Shown piece after piece: positions 4,552-64,000 of a DNA stretch of 64,000 nucleotides. The translations under genes were made by a program, and so were the position numbers. Every line of letters starts with the position of its first letter. Positions within the stretch are counted from its first letter, which is position 1. Below the pieces are notes generated by a model. The model saw only the letters and a list, made by a program, of their open reading frames with translations, ran no database searches and was not told where the DNA came from. Source of the stretch: Gari tellinella (Eukaryota; Mollusca; Bivalvia; Cardiida; Psammobiidae); assembly GCA_922989275.2 (NCBI GenBank), contig OV277864.1:7378001-7442000 (forward strand), in the 5' to 3' direction.

Positions 4552-6339
4552 AGGTTGGTTGCAAAAATAAGCATGCACTTAATTCATATGACATGAAACC
4601 AACACTTTTTACACTCATAGTATATATCGTGCACTTTGTTGTAACTAGCCTGCAATGGCTATCAATCTAGCTGTTGAACCACTGCATAGCACATTTAAGA
4701 ATCACTTCAAGTCGTCTTGAAGCTCAGTTTGACCCTTCACCAGAGCTTCGAAGGTTAAGGGTTCAGGTAGTTCATTGACTTTTTCTAGGTCTTTGATTCA
4801 GCCTTGCAAAGAAGACGTTGGCAGGAGAGTTGAATTATAGTCAAAATTTGCCCTTTTGACCGCAATGTCTTCTATTAGGTTTGCATTGGATACAATAGTT
4901 CCGCTATATTGTTAGATCTTTTCATGAACTTCAATTGCGGGAAAATCCTGCTAGTCCTGTCGCCAAGACTTCAAGCCTGAGAGGAGATGCCAATTTCATT
5001 GAGAATATCAATGTAGCATATATGAAAGAAAGTTAAAATCGCAACGGCTTCGGAGTCTATTATTATTTAATTAGTGTTTCAGAAACATGATCCTTGAGAA
5101 CATTCTATGCATGGCCAGATTGCAAAAAATTCTGGATCTGATTTAGTTACTTTCTCTTTAATACTATGATCCCTATTTAGAGGTTATTTAAAGTTCCTTT
5201 TACCAATGTGATGGCACATGACCTCCCTTGCAATCATATGACGCTTATCGTCACTTCTCAGAGCAGCATCCTAATCATATTGTCTTAATTGCTTCCATTG
5301 TTTCGCATTTTCCCGAATACTCCTTCTTTGATCGACCCCATGAGTTTGATAAGTTAAAATAGTTCATACCGGTTGGGGAATGTAACATTGCCATACTGTC
5401 TCCGATAGTCAAAATTGCAATGCATCGGGCTCGAACAGCAGTGACATTGTTGTAGCAGCTCACATTATTACCTATAGAATCATTAAATGACGATGGAAGA
5501 ATAATGGGCATATATTTCGAGACACGGCTTCTCTCTCGTCTGATAAAATTACATATTTTCTTTGTGCTCATGTCTTTTCATCAAAGATTTGACTTCAGTT
5601 AAGCACTGGGTTTAGTCAGTGACCCAGACACACTTCCTCGGCTTATTGGTGCCCATCTTCGAATCTACATTGCACTTGTATAACAGGAAATACAGCTTCG
5701 TTTAAAAATGAGAGTTTCTCCTTATTGAGTCTGTTAAATTAGTAAAAGTGTATTTGGGCGCTTTTTGTACTATTAAGAGGTTAACTTAAGTCCCATATTT
5801 GGTTCCGTAGATTTTAAAAAATGAAATGACCCATGCTTGAAACACTTATTAAAAATTCTGCTTGATACCATGCTATGTTCAGGTTAGATGTATATTCTCC
5901 ATTTATATACATATTAATAAACAGAAAATAACAATTTCCACTAACCCGCGAAAACTATTGACAAATATGTTTACATGTATATTACACATCCTGCTACCAA
6001 AATTGGCTTTTATACAGAGCTACACATTTTATAAATTTATATTGATACTAAGAAATGATAAATTTGTTCAACATTTGTAAAGAAATATCCACTTTATTGG
6101 CACATATATCCTTATAGTTATCCATATCAGAAAAAATCAATCCTGACCAAATAAACACTTTGATTGTATGGTGGTCAATACAGGCCACTAATTATCCTGT
6201 AAAAGCATTACAAACTTCAGCATTTATCAGTATGAACTATGTTTGGAAAGACACACACAAAAAAGATTTGTATAATCTGGCAAATCAAGAAAATGGCAAA
6301 TTACGAAAATTTATATTAGAAGAAATTAGTAAAAAGGTA

Positions 6340-7400
6340 TAAAGGGCAGCCATTTTGGATAATATCAGCACTGGGGGACAGGAACCAATCTAAATAAAAA
6401 CTTACCGGATTTGTCAGTTAATGTTCGATAAGACTCAACTAAAATTGTTTAGATAAGTATCAATTACAGTCTAAAAATAGTTGAATTGCTCGAAAAGCTT
6501 AATTGTTACTAAAAATAGCCATTTGGCAGCCATTTTGGTTTATAATGGGTCGGAAACCATTCTAAAACATTTTCAAAATATGTATTTGGGGAAACTTCTC
6601 GAATAATTGCTTACAAAATACCATTTAAATCTCTAACAAATGAAATGAAAGCCCTAATGAAGAAAATTTATGTGATTAGAAATTAATGAGATAGGTATAT
6701 ACGGCGGCCATTTTGGATTATTTCAGCACTGGATGACAGGAAACAAATCAAAATCAAGGCTAGTATGATTTCTTAGTTAATGTTCAATACGAATTAACTA
6801 AATTTGTTCCATATGAGTATAAATTGTAGTCATTATAAGTAATGTTATTGCTTGGAAAGCTTAAATGTAACTATAAATATCCATTTTGGCGGCCATTTTG
6901 GATTTCAACGAGTCTGAAACTATCTTAAAACATTTTCAAAATTTGTATCTAGGTAAACTATATTGATAATTGCTGACAAAATACCATTTTTAAATCTCTA
7001 ACGCATGAAATAAAAGCCCTAATCAAGAAAATTCATGTGAGTAGAAATTAATGAGATAGGTATGTACGGCGGCCATTTTGGATTATTTCAGCACTGGATG
7101 ACAGGAAACAAATCAAAATCAAGGCTAGTATGATTTCTTAGTTAATTTTCAATACGAATTAACTAAAATTGTTCCATATGAGTATAACTTGTAGTCAATA
7201 TAAGTAATGTTAGTGCTTGAATAGCTTAAATGTTACTAAAAATAGCCATTTTTGGCGGCCATTTTGGATTTCAACGAGTCTGAAACTATCCTAAAACATT
7301 TTCAAACTTTGTATTTAGGTAAACTACATTGATAATTGCTAACAAAATACCACTTTTAAATCTCTAACACATGAAATAAAAGCCGAATAAGAATGTCAGT
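6340..7400. repeat. three ~360-bp tandem units in the right arm
   Basis: GGCAGCCATTTTGG or GGCGGCCATTTTGG occurs at about 6349, 6526, 6704, 6889, 7067 and 7253. Units 6690-7050 and 7050-7405 are nearly identical (both contain CAGCACTGGATGACAGGAAA and TTTCAACGAGTCTGAAACTA), pointing to a recent tandem duplication that lengthened this arm. Confidence 0.85.
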
Positions 7401-7682
7401 TTTTGCTTAAAAATCCAAGGGGAGACAACTTAAACCTCAATTATCTCCCCTTATCACTACCTAAATACGCGTCAGACGATTGTTTCCAAACTCCTGAGGA
7501 AATATGCTATAAGATGGTACCAAAAGGTTGTATGGTCCTTTCACCGCAAATAAAAGTGGTCTACAGCTTAGACTAAAGGAATTGTTCTTCAATCCAGATA
7601 AAAGAAATAGTCAGAAAATATTGCAGTTCTTAATATATGGATATAAATATATGATGGGTACTTTCTTTTTTGGCTGAGTATA

Positions 7683-27365: not shown

Positions 27366-27630
27366 TTTCTATTTATTACTTCTATGCCATCAATTCTGAT
27401 GATTATTAGAAGGGGCACTTTTTAGGTGCACCATTGGGACTGTACCCGGCCGGTCAATTTATCCTGACACTGACGAACCAGTCGTTATGCTAACCCGAAA
27501 TCCTGAGCGTCAAGGAGCCTCCCGGAAGCCATTACTACCAATTTTCAAGTCTTTGGTTTGACCCGGCCGGGGATTGAACCCGCAACCTCCCGCACTGCAA
27601 GCGGACGCTCTACCACTGAGCTATACAGGC
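27366..27630 (-). mobile_element. tRNA-derived SINE 1, full length
   Basis: Flanked by an 8-bp target duplication GTTACCAT (27358-27365 and 27631-27638). On the minus strand it opens with a Pol III A box (TAGCTCAGTGGTAGAGC) and B box (GGTTGCGGGTTCAATCCC). The tRNA-like head has a foldable GCA anticodon loop but mismatched acceptor arms. It ends in an AATAAATAGAAAAT tail. Other copies: 26405 (body) and 32316 (tail). Confidence 0.9.
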
Positions 27631-41399: not shown

Positions 41400-41469
41400 G
41401 TAGCTCTTCGTTAACCGCTTCACTGCCTTACCGCCGAGTTGGTTAACCCCTTCACTGCCTTATCTTATA

Positions 41470-41706
41470 TGCGTTATTCTTTCCCATTTAAACGCAAACG
41501 AAATGCATACGCAGTGCACGAAAAGGAACAAAATGACAACATTTTGACATTCCTTATGATTTATTATAATCTGAGTGGCAAACAGTTTAGAGCCAGATCA
41601 GACAACGGTTTACCCGGCGTCTGATCTGGCCCCAAACTGTTTGCAATGGAAATAATAGTTTTAGCGTAAACGCGTTAAATGGGAAAGCATAGCGTATTCC
41701 CCACGG
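41470..41706. mobile_element. family B MITE inside the minisatellite
   Basis: GCGTTATTCTTTCCCATTTA left part and AAAGCATAGCGTATTCCCCA right part, with core GAGCCAGATCAGACAACGG facing CCCGGCGTCTGATCTGGCCC. Minisatellite units lie on both sides. Confidence 0.8.
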
Positions 41707-41946
41707 TAACTACTTCACGTCCTTACCCATGAGTAGATCAACCCTTCGCTGCCTTACGCCTGTTAGGATAAACCACTTCGCTTTATTAACCACGAGTTGG
41801 TAAACCCCTTTACTTTCTTACCTCTGAATTGATTTACCGCTTTACTTCACTACCTTTGAGATGGTTAACCCTTCTAATACTTATCCCTTAGTAGATTAAC
41901 CCCTTATTGCATTATCCCTGACTAAATTACTCCAATTACTACTTTA

Positions 41947-41962
41947 CCCCCCCCCCCCCCCC
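41947..41962 (+). repeat. poly-C tract (16 C)
   Basis: Grew from the TTACCCC phrase of a minisatellite unit. Confidence 0.95.
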
Positions 41963-42973
41963 AAGACATACCTCCGAGTTTGTTCATCTCTTTACTATAT
42001 TACACTTGAATTGGCTACCTCTTCACGGCCTTACACCTGAGTTGGTTAACCCCTCACTTCCTTACCCGTGACACCTTTAACCATATATCGCCTTACCCTT
42101 GAGTTGGTTAACCCCTTCAGCGCCTTCTCTCAGAGGTTGTTACTCTTTCACTGTCATATCCCCAAGTTGTCTTATTTATTTACTGTCTTAGCCCAGGGCG
42201 GAATATTCCCTTTGCTTCCTTACCCCCGAGTTAGGTGGCCGCTTTCACTACTTGATCTCCGAGTTAAATAGCCCATTTTCTTCAATACCATTGCGTAGAC
42301 TAACTACTTAACTGCATGATATATTGGTGTTAGTTAAACACTTCACTTCCCAAACCTCAAATTGTTTAGCCCCTTTACTGCCTTACCGTCGAGTTGGTAA
42401 ACCACTTCATCCTCTTACCCCGAGTTGGTAAACACTTTACTGCTTTACCCCCAAATTCATTAATTTACTGCCTTATCCCCGAACCTTTCCTATGTTTGAT
42501 AACCCATTTACTCCCTTACTGCTGAAAAGATTAATCCCATTCACTTTTCTCATCCCTGAGTTAATTAAACCCTTTACTTCCTTCTTACAGAAATGGTTAA
42601 TCATGTCACTGCATTTCCCCTAGTACACCACTTCATATCACTTAGTTGGTTAACTCTTCACAGTCTTACCAATCAGTTAGTTCACAATTGCACAGCATTA
42701 CCCCTAAGTATATTAACCCATTCACTGCCTTACCTCTGAGATGATAAACCCTTCAACTAAACTACCGCTGAGATTGTCTTTCCTTAGAGTTGCTGGACCT
42801 TTATTCTCCTTTCCCCCCTGAGACGATTGACCCCTTCACTTTACCCATGTGCTAGTTAACACCTTTACCTTCTTACCCCTGTGACGGTTAACCCCTTTAC
42901 TTTATTATCACTTTATTGGTTAAAATGTTTACTTCTCTACCACCGATATAGTTAACCCTTTTACAACCTTTAC

Positions 42974-43165
42974 CAGAGCTCCAGATAAGAGGGAGTAATC
43001 TGAAAAAATCGAACATTGTCTCACTCATACAGCACCAAATCCTATGGTGCTACTACTCATTAGAATGGTCTTTTCGAGACCATTCTAATGAGTTGTGACA
43101 CCATAGGGTTTAAAGCAGAAATAAATAATTTAGTTTTTGAAAAAGTCCCCTTATCTGGAGCCCTG
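42974..43165. mobile_element. family D (hAT-like) MITE inside the minisatellite
   Basis: CAGAGCTCCAGATAAGAGGG to CCCCTTATCTGGAGCCCTG. The centre is a near-perfect hairpin (CATTAGAATGGTC / GACCATTCTAATG). It is flanked on both sides by CTTTAC, though that hexamer also occurs in the array, so the true 8-bp duplication cannot be fixed. Confidence 0.85.
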
Positions 43166-44349
43166 CTTTACTACCCTACGCTTGAAATGGTTAACCACTT
43201 ATCTATATTTCCCCTTTTACGGGTTTACTCATTTATTTCCTTACCTCTGAGATGGTAAACCCTTACTATCTTACTCCTAATGTTGTTAACCTCTTTAATG
43301 CCTTATTCTTTAGATTGTTAACCCATTCCCTACTTTACCCTTGAATTGGTTAACCCATTTTCTTCTTAAACACCAATAAAGTTAACTCTTCCAATGCCTT
43401 ACCTCCCCTTCACTGCTATGCCCCTGAGTAAATTGACATGTTAACGCCCTTATCACTGTTTAGCTCTTACTGTCTTACCTCTGGGCTGGTTTACCCCTTT
43501 ACTGCCGTTTACTACCTGAGTTGGTTAATCCTTTCACAACTTTACCTTCATTTTAGTTCAATCCTTCACCGTCTTATCCCTGATTTGACGAGCCCTTCAC
43601 TGCCCAACCCTCAAGTTATGTAACTGCATTACTGTCTTACCTCCTATATTGTTAGCCCCTTCACTCTGTTTCCCCCGTATTGGTTGACCTCTTTACTTAT
43701 TTACCTTTGTCATTGTTAAACTTTCACATCCTATCCCAGACTTGTTTTAACTCATCACTCCCTTAACCCCAAGTTAGGTAAGCCCTTCACTGCCTTATCC
43801 CTGATTGGGTACATCCCTTCAATGCCTTACTGTCGAATTGGTTAACTCTTTAAATGCCTTATCCCCGAGTTGGTTAACCTTTTCACTTCCTTACCCTCGA
43901 GTTGATTAACCACTTTACGACCTTACCTCTGACATGATTAAAATTTCACTGCCGTATGCCCTAGTCAGTTAATCCATTCACAGCCTAGCCTCCTAGTTTG
44001 TTAACCAATTCACCTGAGTTGGTTAACCTTTCACTGTCTAATTTCCAAGTTATTTAACTCATTCACTACCTTAACCCTCAGGTGGTTAACACATGCACTA
44101 CCTTACCACCCGAGTAAGTAAATCCCGTCAGGTGATTGATCACTCATTGTAGTGATAATTGCAAACGTTTTCATACTGATCAGACGGGTCTAAGCAAGAG
44201 ACAAACTGTTTGATACTCGTATAAAATTGTTTTTCAGCCAGAACGATTCGATATTTCTTAAAAGTTAAAGCATGTGATTTTACTGGCATTGTAGGTGTTC
44301 AATATTTCACGACACGGCATGGTGACACTGTAAAGAAAGCTATATTTAC

Positions 44350-45061: not shown

Positions 45062-46085
45062 TCACCTATCCCGTAGTCTGGAGGACCGTAGGGGCACTAC
45101 AGATGACTTGGCAACCAGCTCCTTCCATTCCGTTCTGTTTTCCGCTTTCCGCATCGTTTCCTTCAGACCCATGCCTGTCCAATCTGCAATGTTGACTTCC
45201 CAACGTTTTCTCTGTCGACCTCTTCTTCTCCCTCCGCTTACTGTGCCTTGTAGAATGGTCTTTGAGAGTCCTGAAGATCGTGTAACGTGACCGTACCATC
45301 TCAGCTTCCGCTTTTTCACAGTTGTCAGCAAATCCTCAAATGGTTCAATGGCTTCCCTTATCCTGCAGCAGACTTCTTCATTTGTGATGTGCTCAGTGTA
45401 TGATATACACAATAGTTTCCTGAAGTACCTCATCTCCAGTGCGCTTATCCTGCGTTCCAAATCTGCGTTCAAGATCCAAGATTCACTTGCATACATGAAT
45501 ATGGACATCACCAGTGCACGCATAAACCTTATTTTTGAGCTGAGGCTTATGCTTTGGTCATCCCATATTGGCTTCAGCTTTGCAAGTGCTGCTGTGGTAT
45601 GTGCTGCTCTTGCAAGTATCTCCGGCTGTGATCCTTGATCGCTGACTATGGCACCCAGGTACTTGAAACTATCAACACAACCCAGCTTCTCTCCCTTCAC
45701 CTGTATATATGTGCTGATGCTATTGGAATTGTTGGTCATGATCTTTGTCTTCTCTGCACTAATTTGGATGTCATAGTTGGTACATGACTCATCTAGGCGT
45801 TCCACTAGCTGGACTAACTCCTCCTCCTTCCCAGCTAGGCCGTCTATGTCATCAGCGAAGCGTAGATTCGTTACTATCCTTCCACCGATGCTGGCGGTTC
45901 CTTCGTGGTCTGCCAGAGCGTCTGACATAATTCTCTCTAGGAAGATGTTGAAGAGTGTTGCGGAGAGTAAACATATTGGCCGTACGCCCACTGTCGTTCT
46001 GAACCACTCTCCTACACTACTATTGAAGTACATTGCACTTGTTGCTCTTAAAAAGTTCAGTGGCGGATAAACCCTTTCACTGTCG
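45062..46085 (-). pseudogene. 5'-truncated non-LTR retrotransposon reverse transcriptase (RTE-like)
   Basis: A long frame encodes the C-terminal two thirds of a reverse transcriptase. It includes LRFADDIDGLAG (the YxDD-type catalytic box), ISAEKTKIM, FKYLGAIVSD and a C-terminal region with RKLRWYGHVTRSSGLSKTIL and RRRGRQRKRW, typical of endonuclease-reverse transcriptases of the RTE-like group. It ends PLRSSRLRDR. The block expected as RQGCLLSPTLF reads RPICLLSATLF, losing key residues. The endonuclease and first RT motifs are absent. The open frame continues about 30 codons further upstream, to 46162, but those codons come from flanking DNA. It is a dead 5'-truncated copy, young enough that the frame is still open. 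Confidence 0.85.
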
Positions 46086-46242
46086 AAATAGATAACACTG
46101 TCATCTGCAAACAGCTTGGATACTGATTGTGACGCTGCGTGTGACCATGACATGTTTGACATTCACAGCAATGTTACCTTAGTCAAAAACGCATAATTAC
46201 CAATATTGATAGCAGAAGAAAATACAAGCTGGCGATAGTACG

Positions 46243-57595: not shown

Positions 57596-57937
57596 ACTTG
57601 GAACGAATAGCCATCCACGATTCGGCCAGATTTGTTGTTCAGTTGCCTAGAAGGCGAGAGGATTTAGCTGCGACCCTAGCTAGTTTGCTGAAGCACATCT
57701 GGTATTGTCTCTTTAATTGATTCACTACTGTTGTTGTTGATCTATTCTGGTGTACACTGAATAGGTGTGTTCTTAGCACTAGTTGCCTTACAAAAATCCG
57801 AACAATTGCGGTGATCTCCAAACACGTGGTGGACTGAATTGTGTATATCTTTTTGGAGTTTCTTGCATGCTTCACTTTTATTACTTTCCTTAGAACGAAG
57901 TCGAATGGCACTCCTCACTGAACTGGCTATTTTCATG
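57596..57937 (-). pseudogene. Mutator-like transposase, C-terminal part, disrupted
   Basis: Minus-strand frames give SSVRSAIRLRSKES, HVFGDHRNCSDFCKAT, then in a shifted frame RVAAKSSRLLGN, a stop, TTNLAESWMAIRSKFD and another stop. These are the expected continuation of the GDGDSS segment at 63776-64000: basic RxAIRxRS, HxxCxxxFC and GN.TTNLAESW.AIRSKFDGGK-like blocks of Mutator-like transposase domains of invertebrates. At least one frameshift and two stops show it is dead. The gene runs from beyond the window end leftward, and is cut here by the LINE at 57942-63775. Confidence 0.7.
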
Positions 57938-58357
57938 TGTAGTAGTGTTAGCGCATAGTCGTATTATTTTAAGCTCTCATAAAAAGTGATCTAAATGCTT
58001 TAAACCGCCAAGTGCTGATAAACTTTTTGGATAATCTGTTTCTGGAAACGGTATAGTTTGTGAATATTTCTCTTTTGTGTGACAAAGTATCATTTGAAGA
58101 CTGTTTTTGGGATTGAAATAATTTTGTCACTGAATATAACAGGTGTGGACAATAGCCGTATATTGAAGTTTACCTGCCTACCTGTTTACCTGTATACATG
58201 TATATCGATCGATAGTGAACAGCGGTCAGCGGTCAGCGGTATAGTACAGGTGAGTGTGTAAACCACACATTGCATACGCACGAATAACTACTTATCTGCT
58301 GTGTAAGGGGTACAGTGTGTGATCTGATCAAGACAATCCCTACACGATCTCTACAAG

Positions 58358-59569
58358 ATGGGTATTAGCAGCACACAGTTTAGGGTCAAAATTGGTTTAT
58401 TTGACTTGCAGTGCAGACCGCGCTTCAAACCAATGAAATGGGACAAATATACACCATATCAGCGAGGCACGGATGTGCATTTTCGTAGCATTCTATGTGG
58501 GTTCCTGATCCTTGGTATAGCTTCAGCAACTCTCTCTGTGTTCCATTGCCATGATCTAGTAGTTACTACTTATGCTACGTCACACAGCCCATTATGCGCC
58601 AATGTTAATGCGTTTTTACCCCGAGGAACTGTGCCATTTCCCTTTATATGCAGTTTGCCGAGTAATCAATATGCATCTTACAGTAGTCGTCGGCTGCTTC
58701 TCTCAGCTGATGTGGAACTAAACCCTGGGCCCACTGACGATACCAATCTTTTATTGGACGCTATCAAAGACGTCAAACATGAGATCCTTGGTGTAAAAGG
58801 CGAGGTTAAGCAAATGAAATCTGACTTGAAGCATCTAAAAGTTGAGTTGTCCTCAATTAAAGGTAACATCACCACTCTTGAAAATAATCAGGTACAAATA
58901 CAAAATTGCATATCAAATGTTGAAGCACGGGTGCATGAACTTGAATATGGAACTCAATCATTGGGTGAAGATGTTGGTAGTCTTTCATATCGTGATGAGC
59001 TGTATGGTGAAGCTATTGACAGACTTGAGCGGCAAGCATATATTACAGAATCAGAAAGGTTGAAAAACTCGTTGCGTGTGTTTGGTCTACCAGAAGATGA
59101 GGGTGACGCTGTAAGTCTTGAATCAGTAATAACTTCAAAGGTATTTTCTAAACTAGGCGAAGATGGATCATTAGGTAGTGAATCAATTGAAAGTGCTACA
59201 CGTGTTGGTAAAAAGGGTGGTAAACCGAGATTAGTCATTGTGAAATTCAAAGCTGCAGATGACAAATTTAAACTGTTTGGCGTCAGAGACCAACTAAGGC
59301 GAGAGGGTATAAGAATTTCAAATGACCTGTCCTACATGCAGCGCCAAAAGCTAAAAGAGCTTGGTCATCAGGGTCTGAATGGTTATTTTAAAGGCGGTGA
59401 TTTAATTACGTATCCAAAGCGTGATAATGCTAGTGCTAATAGAAATAGAGAGAGGGTGTTTGTGCCGGCAGCTCGCAGAGGTAATACTAACGGACCTAGA
59501 AACACTGAAATGGAAGTAGCTGACGCTGCAGTGCCATCTTATGCTGCTGTAGCAGCAGGAAATGCATAG
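58358..59569 (+). CDS. LINE ORF1 protein with N-terminal 2A-like motif
   Basis: Starts at ATG 58358 in a good context (CAAGATGG). Residues about 44-62 (SILCGFLILGIASATLS) form a hydrophobic segment that could act as signal or membrane anchor. Residues 118-125 are DVELNPGP, matching the D-V/I-E-x-N-P-G-P consensus of 2A peptides, which make ribosomes skip the last glycine-proline bond. Skipping would release 124 residues and a 279-residue protein starting with proline. From about 131 to 215 comes a heptad-rich coiled coil (EILGVKGEVKQMKSDLKHLK). An RRM-like and C-terminal nucleic-acid-binding part follows (LRVFGLPEDEG, PRLVIVKFKA, RRGNTNGPRN). This is the layout of L1-type ORF1 RNA chaperones. 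2A-like motifs at this place are known in some mollusc and sea-urchin non-LTR elements. Confidence 0.85.
   Translation: MGISSTQFRVKIGLFDLQCRPRFKPMKWDKYTPYQRGTDVHFRSILCGFLILGIASATLSVFHCHDLVVTTYATSHSPLCANVNAFLPRGTVPFPFICSLPSNQYASYSSRRLLLSADVELNPGPTDDTNLLLDAIKDVKHEILGVKGEVKQMKSDLKHLKVELSSIKGNITTLENNQVQIQNCISNVEARVHELEYGTQSLGEDVGSLSYRDELYGEAIDRLERQAYITESERLKNSLRVFGLPEDEGDAVSLESVITSKVFSKLGEDGSLGSESIESATRVGKKGGKPRLVIVKFKAADDKFKLFGVRDQLRREGIRISNDLSYMQRQKLKELGHQGLNGYFKGGDLITYPKRDNASANRNRERVFVPAARRGNTNGPRNTEMEVADAAVPSYAAVAAGNA
58709..58732 (+). promoter_or_regulatory. 2A-like ribosome-skipping motif
   Basis: Encodes DVELNPGP at residues 118-125 of ORF1, preceded by the leucine-rich RRLLLSA typical of active 2A sequences. 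Predicted break between residues 124 and 125. Confidence 0.8.
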
Positions 59570-59592
59570 GGGGTAGGTCAAAGCCCATCACA
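59567..59592 (+). promoter_or_regulatory. candidate UAG readthrough site between ORF1 and ORF2
   Basis: GCA TAG GGG GTA GGT CAA. The stop is in the same frame as both ORFs, and the frame stays open from here through ORF2. Purine-rich GG-starting sequence right after UAG is also seen at well-studied retroviral readthrough stops; the similarity is only suggestive. Confidence 0.45.
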
Positions 59593-62500
59593 TTTCCTTC
59601 ATATCCTATCATGGAACATTGAAGGAATTGATTCAAAACTAAGGAATTTTGACTTGTTTGATTTTCTAAAGGTGTATGATATAGTTACTTTCCAGGAAAC
59701 ATGGGATACTAACCTTTGTGATTGCAGCGACTCTGTTTTCGAAAATTATGATAAGTTTGTTTGTAATGCTAAAAAGTCGAAACGTGGTGGGAGGCATATG
59801 GGTGGGGTAGTTGTATATATCAAAACATGTATAGGGAAATTGGTAAAGCGTATCTGTCCTGAGTTTGAATTTGGGGTATGTTTATTAATAGATAAATCAG
59901 TGTTTCATGCTAGTAATGATATTTTACTCATTTCAATGTACATCCCACCAGTTAATTCGCCTTTTTATGACACTACAACTGAATCAGGTTTTGAACAGTT
60001 AGAAAATTTGCTTATACATAACAATTTACTTGATTATGAACTTTTACTTTGTGGAGACCTAAATGCGAGAACAGGTAATTTGGAAGATTTTATTGTTTGT
60101 GAAGATGTACCTGAATTGCACGACGTTATTGATATATTAGGTAACAGGAATAATACACAAAGAATTACTTGTGATACAGTTGTAAATAGTTTTGGTAGAC
60201 AGTTGTTAAATTTTTGTAAAGCATTTTCATGTAGTATTGCAAATGGACGAGTATCAAAAGCAAATATTGGCAGTAAAGACAACCATTTTACGTATATTAG
60301 TCAAACTGGTCAGAGCACCATAGATTATTTTGTTGCTTCTCAGCCCTTACTGGACGTTGCATATGACTTTGAAGTTCTCAACCGAGTTGAAAGCTCTCAT
60401 ATGCCCATTACACTATTATTCCAAGTAAAAACACCCATTGCCACAGACTTCCAGGTAAACGAGCGTAACGGTTTTAAACTGAACGATGACACAAAAAGTG
60501 ACTACATTTCTACACTTGCGAGTGGTGTGTCTAATGGAGATTTTGTTAACATTGAACAAATGTTATTAAATCATGAGGATATAAATATTATTGTTGATGC
60601 GCTTGAAAAAGCAATTATAAAAACAAGTGAAAATTTTATGTATGCCAAACACACAAGAAAAACTAGGAGAAAAAACTTTAATACTTGGTATGATGCAGAT
60701 TGTAAATCAGCACATGTAGAAGCAAGAAAAGCACTGCGTAAGTATCGGTCCTACCGAAATATAGATAATTTGAACAATTATGTAGAGAAACGAAATATAT
60801 ATAGGGATATGTGTAAAAACAAGCATGCAATATATGACAAACAGGTTTTAGATAAATTGAATGATAATGTAAATAATTCCAAATTGTTCTGGAAGCAGTT
60901 GAAAAATCTTACAAACACAAGTACATGTGAGAACAGTATTAGCATTGAAAAATGGTATGAGCATTTTAGTACTCTTTTCAGTCACAATGGTATGCAACAA
61001 GAAGAAGATGCTGATTTAACTGTTCCCGTTCCGGATAGGGATATCGATGAGATTGGAAATATTTTATTTAATGATTTGATTTCACTTGAGGAAATTATGG
61101 AAAGTGTAAAGAAAATAAACATTAGTAAAGCAAGTGGTGGTATTCTAATACCGCAGCATATTGTTTATGGTATACATGTTTTATTACCATATATACATTT
61201 ATTGTTTAACAGAATTTTCTGCAGTGGGGTATTTCCAGACAAATGGGCATGCTGCGTGGTCGTTCCTCTATTTAAAAAGGGAAATATTCACGATACTAAT
61301 AACTATAGAGGCATTTCATTAATTGATGTGCAAAGTAAACTTTATATATCTATAATTACACAGCGGCTTACATTTTATGTTGAAGCTTACAAGAAACTTG
61401 CTGAATGTCAGGCAGGCTTTCGTGCCGGTTACAGCACAGCTGATAATGCTTTTATATTGTATTCTGTTGTAAGGAAATATTTACAACGTAAACGTAAACC
61501 TGTTTATGTTGCCTTTGTAGATTTTAAAAAGGCTTTTGATAGTGTTAACCGTTCAATATTATACGATGTTTTGAGGAAAAATAATATTAAAGGTCTACTG
61601 TTTCAGTCTATACAGTCAATCTATAAAACTGTTAAAGGTTTAGTAAGGACCAGGAATGGTACCTCCGACACGTTTGATTGTCCATTAGGTTTACGCCAGG
61701 GATGTAGTTTAAGTCCTATATTGTTTGCGCTATTTATTAATGAATTTTATGATATGTTATGCGATAACAACATTCGTGGCATACAGTTATTTCCAGATCT
61801 AGTTGAAATATTTCTGCTGATGTTTGCAGATGACATTGCATGTATCAGTGATACAGTCTCTGGTTTACAGAAGCAGTTAAATATGTTACATAGTTTTTGT
61901 GACGAGTATAGAATATCAGTTAATACTGACAAAACAAAAGTTCTTGTTTTTAAAAATGGGGGGCGTTTGTCAAGAAATGAAAGATGGATTTATGACCATA
62001 ATGCATTACAAACAGTTAGTGGTTTTGATTATGTCGGTATTCGTTTCACAAACAGACTTTCATTATGTAAAATGGCCGAGAGTATGTCTGTGAAAGGTAA
62101 AAAAGTATTACTGTATGTTCTAAATTCGTTAAAAAATTATGAATGTTTGCCATATAATGTATTCTTTAAAATATTTGATACTACGATAGCACCTATTTTA
62201 TTATATGGTTCAGAGATTTGGGGTATTAATAGTTATCCATGTATTGAGAGTGTGCAATATTTAGCTTGCAAACGATTCCTTGGTGTTAAGCAACTCACAT
62301 GTAATGATGCAGTCATGGGCGACCTAGCTCGATACCCAATGTATATATGTAGCTCGAAAAGGTGTATTAAGTACTGGATAAGATTGCTTTCTTTGACGAA
62401 CGATCGCTATACTAAATTATGTTATAATATGTTGGTTTATTATGATAGGTTAGGTTATAGAAATTGGGCTACGAGTATTAGAGAAAACTTGTATCAAAAT

Positions 62501-63019
62501 GGATTTGGCTATGTGTGGGAAGCTCAATCTGTTAATAATGCTACATTGTTTCTTAGCCAATATGTCATGAGACTGAAAGATCAATCTATCCAAAATTGGC
62601 GATCTAGATGTGAGGTAAATAGAAAATTAACATTGTACATCCATTTTAAGAAGTCATTTCATATTGAAAATTATGTAACTTGTATAAATATTGCTAAGTT
62701 CAGGTCACTGTTTGCATCTTTCAGGGGTTCATCTCATTCTTTATCAGTTGAAACTGGGCGTTATTATTCTGTTGATCGTGATTATAGATTGTGTCCTTAT
62801 TGTGATTGCTGTATAGAGGATGAGTATCATTTCGTTATGATATGTCCGCTATACAGTCATCTAAGGACGCTTTACATACATAGTTCATATACAGTCAATC
62901 CTTCGATGGAGAAATTTTGCTCTCTTATGTCTAGTTATAAGAAAGAGGTTCAAACGCTTGCAATGTTTATTCATTATGCGTTAAAAGAACGACAGTCGTA
63001 TATGGGTATATTCGATTGA
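59570..63019 (+). CDS. LINE ORF2: AP endonuclease plus reverse transcriptase
   Basis: Open from the codon after the ORF1 stop to TGA 63017-63019, about 1149 codons. The endonuclease begins before any ATG: HILSWNIEGIDSKL (59600-59641), then FQETW, GDLNAR, STIDYF and SSHMPI, which carry the expected Asn, Glu, Asp-Asn, Asp and His residues. The first in-frame ATG is at 59798, beyond two of these. Reverse transcriptase blocks: VVVPLFKKG, NNYRGISL, AGFRAGYSTADN, FVDFKKAFDSVN, GLRQGCSLSPILF and MFADDIACISD (YxDD type, all catalytic aspartates present). A C-terminal Cys/His knuckle reads CPYCDCC...YHFVMICPLY. No RNase H. It copies the element's RNA at a nicked target. All catalytic blocks are intact, so it may be active. 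The TTG at 59654 is an alternative start. Confidence 0.88.
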   Translation, partial: GVGQSPSHFLHILSWNIEGIDSKLRNFDLFDFLKVYDIVTFQETWDTNLCDCSDSVFENYDKFVCNAKKSKRGGRHMGGVVVYIKTCIGKLVKRICPEFEFGVCLLIDKSVFHASNDILLISMYIPPVNSPFYDTTTESGFEQLENLLIHNNLLDYELLLCGDLNARTGNLEDFIVCEDVPELHDVIDILGNRNNTQRITCDTVVNSFGRQLLNFCKAFSCSIANGRVSKANIGSKDNHFTYISQTGQSTIDYFVASQPLLDVAYDFEVLNRVESSHMPITLLFQVKTPIATDFQVNERNGFKLNDDTKSDYISTLASGVSNGDFVNIEQMLLNHEDINIIVDALEKAIIKTSENFMYAKHTRKTRRKNFNTWYDADCKSAHVEARKALRKYRSYRNIDNLNNYVEKRNIYRDMCKNKHAIYDKQVLDKLNDNVNNSKLFWKQLKNLTNTSTCENSISIEKWYEHFSTLFSHNGMQQEEDADLTVPVPDRDIDEIGNILFNDLISLEEIMESVKKINISKASGGILIPQHIVYGIHVLLPYIHLLFNRIFCSGVFPDKWACCVVVPLFKKGNIHDTNNYRGISLIDVQSKLYISIITQRLTFYVEAYKKLAECQAGFRAGYSTADNAFILYSVVRKYLQRKRKPVYVAFVDFKKAFDSVNRSILYDVLRKNNIKGLLFQSIQSIYKTVKGLVRTRNGTSDTFDCPLGLRQGCSLSPILFALFINEFYDMLCDNNIRGIQLFPDLVEIFLLMFADDIACISDTVSGLQKQLNMLHSFCDEYRISVNTDKTKVLVFKNGGRLSRNERWIYDHNALQTVSGFDYVGIRFTNRLSLCKMAESMSVKGKKVLLYVLNSLKNYECLPYNVFFKIFDTTIAPILLYGSEIWGINSYPCIESVQYLACKRFLGVKQLTCNDAVMGDLARYPMYICSSKRCIKYWIRLLSLTNDRYTKLCYNMLVYYDRLGYRNWATSIRENLYQNGFGYVWEAQSVNNATLFLSQYVMRLKDQSIQNWRSRCEVNRKLTLYIHFKKSFHIENYVTCINIAKFRSLFASFRGSSHSLSVETGRYYSVDRDYRLCPYCDCCIEDEYHFVMICPLYSHLRTLYIHSSYTVNPSMEKFCSLMSSYKKEVQTLAMFIHYALKERQSYMGIFD

Positions 63020-63061
63020 TATCGCATGTTTATGTAATTGACAAAATTTATCTGCATAATT

Positions 63062-63680
63062 ACATTCTCTATGTTAACTTATGTATATTGGTAAGATCTA
63101 CTTTCCAAATTAAAAGTATGGCTTTAATAGATCTTAAGGCAGATTACCAGGATAAAAGTTATGCAGAAAGCTTTTTCATCAGCTTTCTGTGTTGCTTTTG
63201 ACCTGTATGGTCTGCTTGGATAAAAGTTATGCGGAAGGCTTTTCAGGAGCTTTCTGTGTGGCTTTTGACCTGTATTGACAAACTTTATATATAAAGCGTT
63301 TTTATCAGCTTTCTATGTTGTTTTGACCTGTATGTTCTGCCTAGATAACTGCTCAGTCCAGGATAAAAGTTATGCAGAAGGCTTTTTCAGGAGCTTTCTG
63401 TATTGCTTTTGACCTGTATTGACAAACTTTATATGTAAAGCTTTTTTATCAGCTTTCTATGTTGTTGTGACCTGTATGTTCTGCCTAGATAACTGATCAA
63501 TCCAGGATAAAAGTTATGCAGAAGGCTTTTTCAGGAGCCTTCTGTATTGCTTTTCACCTGAATGACTAAAATCGTCTGTTTAATTCTGTTCTGTATTTTA
63601 ATTTATGTATAGTGCTATGATCTTTTTCCAAAGTTTCAAGTATGGATTTAATTGATCTTAAGGCAGATTACCAGGATGCT
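63062..63680 (+). repeat. LINE 3' UTR with direct repeats and ~142-bp minisatellite
   Basis: GGATAAAAGTTATGC recurs at about 63150, 63219, 63362 and 63504 (69, 143 and 142 bp apart), each followed by CAGCTTTCTGTGTTGC-like sequence. The outer segments 63062-63152 and 63585-63677 are also direct repeats (GATCTTAAGGCAGATTACCA). Confidence 0.85.
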
Positions 63681-63775
63681 TTCACTACTACACATGTTTA
63701 TTAAATGTACATTTGTATATATCATCTTGTGTATGGGCCGGTGGCCTTAGTACAATAAATGTTGAACTGTTGAAC

Positions 63776-64000
63776 TGTATTCTGGCTGATTTGGACAACT
63801 TGCCTTTCCCCTTGTAATACTTGTTTTCTTTTACTAGTTTTTCTAAGCTGCTTCTAAGGCACTTACACACATGATTGGCACATTCAATTTTGGTCACTGT
63901 ACTTCCCCAAACTGGCACATTTTCCTGAATGTTGGCATAAACAGATGAATCACCATCAGCAATTAATTTAGTATATCTCAATCCATGCATTTTCTCAGCT
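63776..64000 (-). pseudogene. Mutator-like transposase, central part, runs off the window
   Basis: On the minus strand the frame is open from the window edge (AEKMHGLRYTKLIADGDSSV), through VPVWGSTVTKIECANHVCKC and SSLEKLVKENKYYKGKGKL, to the LINE border at about 63779. The GDGDSS motif, ECANH, the CxC pair and the GKGKL block are those of the Mutator-like transposase domain found in many invertebrate genes. The acidic residues in DGD are probably catalytic. The frame then reads into the LINE tail, so the ORF after 63779 is chimeric. Upstream coding sequence must lie beyond 64000. The downstream remainder is at 57596-57937. Confidence 0.75.

Follow-up and report, generated by a model that had tools for sequence, protein, structure and literature searches.

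Programmed readthrough of the class designated type III is described in viruses as UAG followed by a 3' G or a purine-rich octanucleotide, in general with some 3' structure. The examples given are the gammaretroviral reverse transcriptase (UAG-G), the Tombusviridae replicase (UAG-GGR) and the luteovirus coat extension (PMC3542737). In long interspersed nuclear elements (LINEs), which are non-long-terminal-repeat (non-LTR) retrotransposons, the synthesis of the protein encoded by the second open reading frame (ORF2) is settled for only a few models. It is described as reinitiation or as initiation of an unknown kind (PMC5972666, PMC5009743). SART1 uses stop-start reinitiation at an AUG that overlaps the stop (UAAUG), with a downstream element (PMC5972666). 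In mammalian LINE-1 the two ORFs are parted by a 63-nt spacer (PMC5972666) and the start of ORF2 is thought to be AUG-independent (Alisch 2006, cited in PMC5972666 and PMC5009743). A 2A motif occurs in the proteins of other non-LTR elements (Odon 2013 and Heras 2006, cited in PMC4981915 and PMC5972666). The LINE described here lies in a 64,000-nt stretch of the genome of the bivalve Gari tellinella (contig OV277864.1, positions 7,378,001 to 7,442,000, forward strand; hereafter the window). Its ORF1 and ORF2 occupy one reading frame interrupted by a single UAG. We consider it likely, at a probability of about 0.8, that a programmed, type-III-like readthrough of this UAG produces an ORF1-ORF2 fusion in a 2A-bearing LINE that has no start codon for ORF2. 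Such a route, familiar from retroviruses, is unusual for LINEs.

One reading frame across a UAG codon

The element and its parts are as follows.

57936..63769 (+): full-length LINE (non-LTR retrotransposon), delimited by blastn against 16 further copies
57936..58357 (+): 5' untranslated region, from the 5' boundary given by the copies up to the ORF1 ATG
58358..59569 (+): ORF1, 403 aa, with an N-terminal part, a 2A motif, a coiled coil and an RRM-type core (ORF list; profile match)
58709..58732 (+): 2A (StopGo) motif DVELNPGP; N-P-G-P is invariant in 12/12 aligned ORF1 sequences
59567..59569 (+): UAG stop of ORF1, the proposed readthrough codon (sequence, copies)
59570..59587 (+): proposed 3' readthrough signal GGGGTAGGTCAAAGCCCA, which fits GRNNNN-GGYCRARGYY, conserved in the 13 group-I families described below, which were found without presupposing it
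59570..63019 (+): ORF2 frame encoding endonuclease and reverse transcriptase, the endonuclease not preceded by any in-frame AUG (ORF list, Pfam)
59606..60349 (+): APE-type endonuclease domain, residues 13-260 of the ORF2 frame (PF03372, Exo_endo_phos, E 1.4e-12)
59798..59800 (+): first in-frame ATG of ORF2, inside the endonuclease (sequence, aligned copies)
61280..62044 (+): reverse transcriptase domain, residues 571-825 of the ORF2 frame (PF00078, RVT_1, E 8.5e-33)
directly 3' of the LINE 57936..63769 (+): TTGAACTG microsatellite tail

ORF1 terminates at TAG 59567-59569; beyond it, the identical frame stays open from 59570 until a TGA at 63017-63019. The original prediction, that both ORFs share one frame parted by a single UAG and that endonuclease residues are encoded upstream of the first ATG, is borne out on both counts by the window sequence and by the position of the Pfam match. 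The codons for SWNIEG and FQETW precede the in-frame ATG at 59798, which lies 228 nt from the stop; an ORF2 initiated at this AUG would therefore lack the N-terminal part of the endonuclease. In-frame near-start codons in this interval include TTG 59654, GTG 59672 and ATA 59681, and ATGs in the other frames open merely 2-20 codons. No overlap of the SART1 type is present: the other-frame ATG just before the stop (59562) opens 4 codons.

Both hallmarks of a LINE were found: APE endonuclease and reverse transcriptase in one ORF2 frame, and scattered copies with a common 3' end and variable 5' truncation. The blastn alignments of the 16 further copies begin between 57936 and 59553 and end at 63769-63784 in 15 of them, L042 being aligned only to 60773; three run from 57936-57938 to 63769-63777 and are full length. 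Profile comparison assigns ORF1 to the LINE-1 ORF1p type: combined with 11 database relatives, it yields a profile that matches LINE-1 ORF1p structures with an E value of 1.5e-8. One database relative carries a name and comes from the bivalve Mactra antiquata, in keeping with a mollusc host. As a guess, the element is CR1/L2-like (Jockey superfamily), possibly CR1-Zenon, a clade described as bivalve-rich (PMC10294476). Repeated units (CCAGGATAAAAGTTATGCAGAA...) occur in the 3' untranslated region at 63147-63570 and are found in other copies too.

The ORF1 motif conforms to the 2A/StopGo sequence D[VI]ExNPGP, and separation activity is predicted from it. Eight 5' stretches from other families were fetched. 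Seven of them carry the same motif, 100-136 residues from the ORF1 Met, and in the remaining one, L085, no ORF1 is seen. The combination of 2A, ORF1, UAG and ORF2 was found in 8 group-I families including the window's, the 5' stretch and the junction having been read separately in seven of them. In the public protein set, NPGP occurs in 11/11 ORF1-type proteins vs 0/32 ORF2-type proteins. A search of this set for fused proteins, using residues 230-720 of the readthrough frame, gave 13 proteins of 913-1263 aa, the best of which covers 63% of that region. The stretch of about 100-136 residues before 2A (58358-58732 in the window; L081-L084 and L086-L088) shares, in this order, the motifs YRxR[IV]G and [ST]D[VI]HxR and a hydrophobic segment.

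Close copies and diverged families

A genome search with 59400-60300 listed 41 matches. All of the aligned close copies (30/30) retain the TAG together with the GGGGTA after it; none has a sense codon at this position, and the TAG is not private to the window copy. Taken alone this is weak, because the close copies are 96-100% identical and 15 of the 30 (L010-L024) look as if duplicated from a single truncated insertion on contig C3; these 15 were not used as independent copies. Sixteen copies were fetched at greater length and aligned with the window, giving 17 rows. TAG and the next 15 bases are identical in all of them, and ORF2 is open in 11. Both ORFs are open and full length in four rows, the window copy, L031, L032 and L033, which sit in four separate genome places and all carry TAG GGG GTA. 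The latter three are 99.49-99.59% identical to the window copy; such identity with both ORFs open indicates recent activity of the element. An in-frame ATG before the endonuclease, which would have spoken against the original prediction, is absent from the family: the first Met is residue 77 (59798) in 16/17 rows, and the exception, L044, has lost the frame.

The C3 copies form part of a series of seventeen LINE matches (L010-L024 and two more; G000:C3, 11.77-19.26 Mb) that are 94-98% identical, spaced 0.36-0.87 Mb apart and present in both orientations. The fetched ones resemble a single 5'-truncated insertion, which suggests segmental amplification over several megabases.

Diverged relatives were sampled in the same genome by protein similarity, with neither the stop nor its context presupposed; each protein search scored the best 38-42 of over 20,000 candidates. 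The search with P0001 gave 43 matches with open frames of at most 1171 aa, vs about 1550 for a fusion. Those with P0004 and P0005 gave 41 and 44 matches with frames up to 1154 and 1172 aa, respectively, and that with P0037 gave 40 matches. The end of an upstream ORF is retained in 51/58 fetched junction stretches; the others (L049, L053, L066, L080, L100, L107, L112) show no ORF1 end, were taken as 5'-truncated and were left out. For eight stretches (L061, L062, L067, L077, L078, L079, L118, L119), in-frame ORF1 is limited to its final portion, with truncation or a frameshift affecting the remainder; this final portion served for the count. The upstream ORF end is in the ORF2 frame in 51/51, the junction stop is TAG in 49 and TAA in 2, and the upstream part is recognisable by eye as ORF1 in 47, L113-L116 showing only an open frame. 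A 5'-truncated copy of family F12 (L066) has, by eye, TTG at the stop position.

Families were delimited by eye from the junction and the N-terminal sequence; F12, 83% identical to F6, was counted apart, and L105 and L106 were counted as one. Counting the window's own, which belongs to group I, there are 22 families; groups I, II and III comprise 13, 5 and 4 of them, respectively. The upstream ORF end shares the ORF2 frame in 22/22. UAG is the stop in 21/22 and G stands at +4 in 20/22; the type III context is present as UAG-G in 20/22 families, including 13/13 of group I. In 19/22, the interval from the stop to the W-N motif or its counterpart contains no in-frame ATG.

Group I has a longer signature. 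The bases after the stop read GRNNNN-GGYCRARGYY in 13/13 families, whose ORF2 N-termini are 25-83% identical (median 38%). In all 13 families, signal codon 3 (Gly) is GGY, against a background of 106/147, codon 4 is CRA, ending in A, and codon 5 is RGY; where codon 5 encodes Ser it is AGC in 7/7, AGC making up 18/183 Ser codons of the background sample. The joint probability of these synonymous choices, given the amino acids, is 1.3e-10 if the families are independent; they are related, so the figure overstates the case. Synonymous sites are thus fixed within the signal, the kind of 3' conservation that the original prediction had asked about. Outside it, columns above 1 bit are isolated (-29, -23 and 38 nt after the stop), conserved bases form no run upstream of the stop, and the linker after the stop varies from 14 to 20 codons.

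The signal joined to the endonuclease start was also searched genome-wide. With TAG there were 115 matches, with TAA one (a copy of family F4), with TGA one (unlike any family), and with the sense codons TGG and CAG, the two that were searched, none; the reversed-pattern control gave 0 matches each time. The distance from stop to W-N is a multiple of three in 99 of 100 matches listed, C4:3118401 being the exception. About eight further candidate families (F14-F21), recognised by the pattern, appear among the matches listed. In viral contigs the signal pattern gave 8 matches, seven near-identical and one other; these were treated as unrelated, the printed translations not continuing like the LINE linker and endonuclease start. 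A protein-level search of viral contigs gave no relatives.

The original prediction also proposed a pseudoknot at 59575-59640. This part is not supported. A hairpin at about 59591-59632 has z of -2.3 and -2.7 in two short folding windows and -0.2 in one of 134 nt, its best window ranking 7th of 200 along the element; the other families have no run of conserved bases at its position. Rfam gave no readthrough element in 12 junction loci up to E 5, the only match being a weak one to a snoRNA. The signal may act as a linear sequence.

Proposed readthrough and its alternatives

The following scheme would account for the junction. ORF1 is translated and an N-terminal piece would be released at the 2A motif. 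Most ribosomes would stop at the UAG, giving ORF1p. A minority, aided by the downstream UAG-GRNNNN-GGYCRARGYY, would decode UAG as an amino acid and continue, giving an ORF1p-endonuclease-reverse transcriptase fusion, in a manner resembling gag-pol production via readthrough in some retroviruses. The sequence shows the single frame, the UAG, the absent AUG and the conserved signal with its spread over diverged families, and it supports the readthrough fusion put forward in the original prediction; the occurrence and rate of readthrough, the inserted amino acid, the action of 2A and the service of the fusion as active polymerase are inferred. That the frame persists in groups II and III, where the group-I signal is lacking, speaks for reading through.

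The main rival is termination-coupled reinitiation on a non-AUG codon in or just after the conserved 18 nt, with the signal holding the post-termination ribosome and ORF2 made as a free protein. Reinitiation is a mode described in LINEs, with a downstream structure in SART1 and as an unconventional proposal for LINE-1 (PMC5972666), and if the signal and the start lay at a fixed distance from the stop, the shared frame could have been inherited from one ancestral 1-in-3 chance. It does not, however, require a shared frame, which groups II and III retain without the signal, and the AUG for it is absent here; no conserved start-like codon is seen in the group-I linker, nor any conserved run upstream of the stop. 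We regard it as unlikely. Independent internal initiation, or a spliced RNA, could make ORF2 with the shared frame and the absent AUG as by-products. TAG then G could be read as an acceptor-like site, but no pyrimidine tract is visible by eye in the 45 bases before the stop and an intron would presumably be lost on retrotransposition; against either version stands the same frame in 22/22 families, and we hold both to be very improbable.

A-to-I editing, a known alternative to readthrough at UAG (PMC3542737), would convert a fraction of the mRNA from UAG to UIG (Trp), thereby joining the ORFs. An edited RNA that made ORF2 would be expected to be copied in cis into DNA as TGG, yet the genome-wide pattern has 0 TGG vs 115 TAG, and no shared complementary partner of the signal is found within -60 to +130; editing seems extremely improbable. 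There is next to no chance that the UAG is a defect of the window copy or an assembly error. The stop is kept in the 30 aligned close copies and in the diverged families, and even with 15 of the 30 set aside as apparent duplicates, the four full-length open copies carry it in four separate places; a private mutation or assembly error is refuted by this distribution.

Several observations weigh against the readthrough reading. Four rows of one family in the P0037 search show open frames of 1461-1588 aa, as if stopless; the DNA at these loci (L052, L054, L055, L056) does hold TAG, and the values are taken as the frame read across it. The open frame before the stop of L113-L116 was not identified as ORF1 by homology, and the one-frame junction of L113/L114 (C9:84.297 Mb, C16:58.549 Mb) is UAA-U and that of L117/L118 is UAG-C, both outside the type III context. 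(The CGG in the UAG-CGG of L117/L118 recalls a type II context.) The absence of an ATG before the endonuclease, which stood in the other families, fails in F10, F11 and L102, where one lies just before the domain, and likewise in variant L099 of the L098 family. The database relatives P0005, P0006, P0007, P0036, P0037 and P0039 start with Met before the endonuclease; the trait is therefore not universal among relatives. The 115 TAG matches include C3-array duplicates (at least 12 of the 100 listed), and since the families share ancestry, counts of families overstate independence. Groups II and III, known from nine families of which one has UAA and another UAG-C, lack the GGYCRARGYY part. A 3-bp GGY/GYY stem is possible in 63/63 cells of 21 families, yet all changes in it are one-sided, which leaves the structure unproven, and the predicted pairings differ among families.

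Beyond the element itself, we lean, with some reserve, towards a wider reading: that programmed UAG readthrough, yielding a Gag-Pol-like ORF1-ORF2 fusion, is the sole route to the polymerase in a large and ancient group of animal LINEs, that it is combined with 2A on the same mRNA, and that one branch uses a new kind of compact linear signal (UAG-GRNNNN-GGYCRARGYY). If this is true, a whole LINE lineage sets its ratio of ORF1p to polymerase as readthrough retroviruses do, and the enzyme is delivered already fused to an RNA-binding protein. About twenty naturally occurring variants, at family level, would then be available for an 18-nt readthrough signal, 13 sampled blind and about eight more from the pattern matches listed. 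LINE annotation by single open frames would miss such a fusion. The titles and abstract openings of the literature matches listed contain no stop-codon readthrough between LINE ORFs, which is weak evidence of novelty.

The rest of the window and relation to known systems

Elsewhere in the window, a 366-aa open frame at 45062-46162 (-) corresponds to the C-terminal half of a reverse transcriptase (PF00078, E 7e-11) from a different element. At 41406-44022 lie at least 32 degenerate tandem copies of a repeat with a period of 32 nt (GTTGGTTAACCCCTTCACTGCCTTACC...). A large inverted repeat pairs 1552-2505 with 6259-7575; complementarity between the arms is 89-98%, the distance between them is about 4-5 kb, and the right arm contains units spaced at about 365 nt. 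An Rfam tRNA match of 38 bits lies at 27560-27630 (-).

Among the known systems, viral type III readthrough resembles the junction in its UAG, in the 3' G or purines, and in a same-frame downstream polymerase made as a minority fusion, which for the LINE we infer. The LINE differs from the viruses in its host element, in having a short, linear consensus of 18 nt for which no pseudoknot is proven, and in carrying 2A on the same mRNA. In SART1, too, a stop codon followed by a downstream element couples the two ORFs of a LINE; there an AUG overlaps the stop, whereas the window LINE has no such AUG and its frames coincide. The 2A-bearing non-LTR elements likewise have the motif in the element's own protein. 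Mammalian LINE-1 is similar in an apparently AUG-independent start of ORF2 and in an ORF1p core of the same kind, but its ORFs are separated by a spacer, whereas in the window LINE the stop alone parts the ORFs and the frame is shared.

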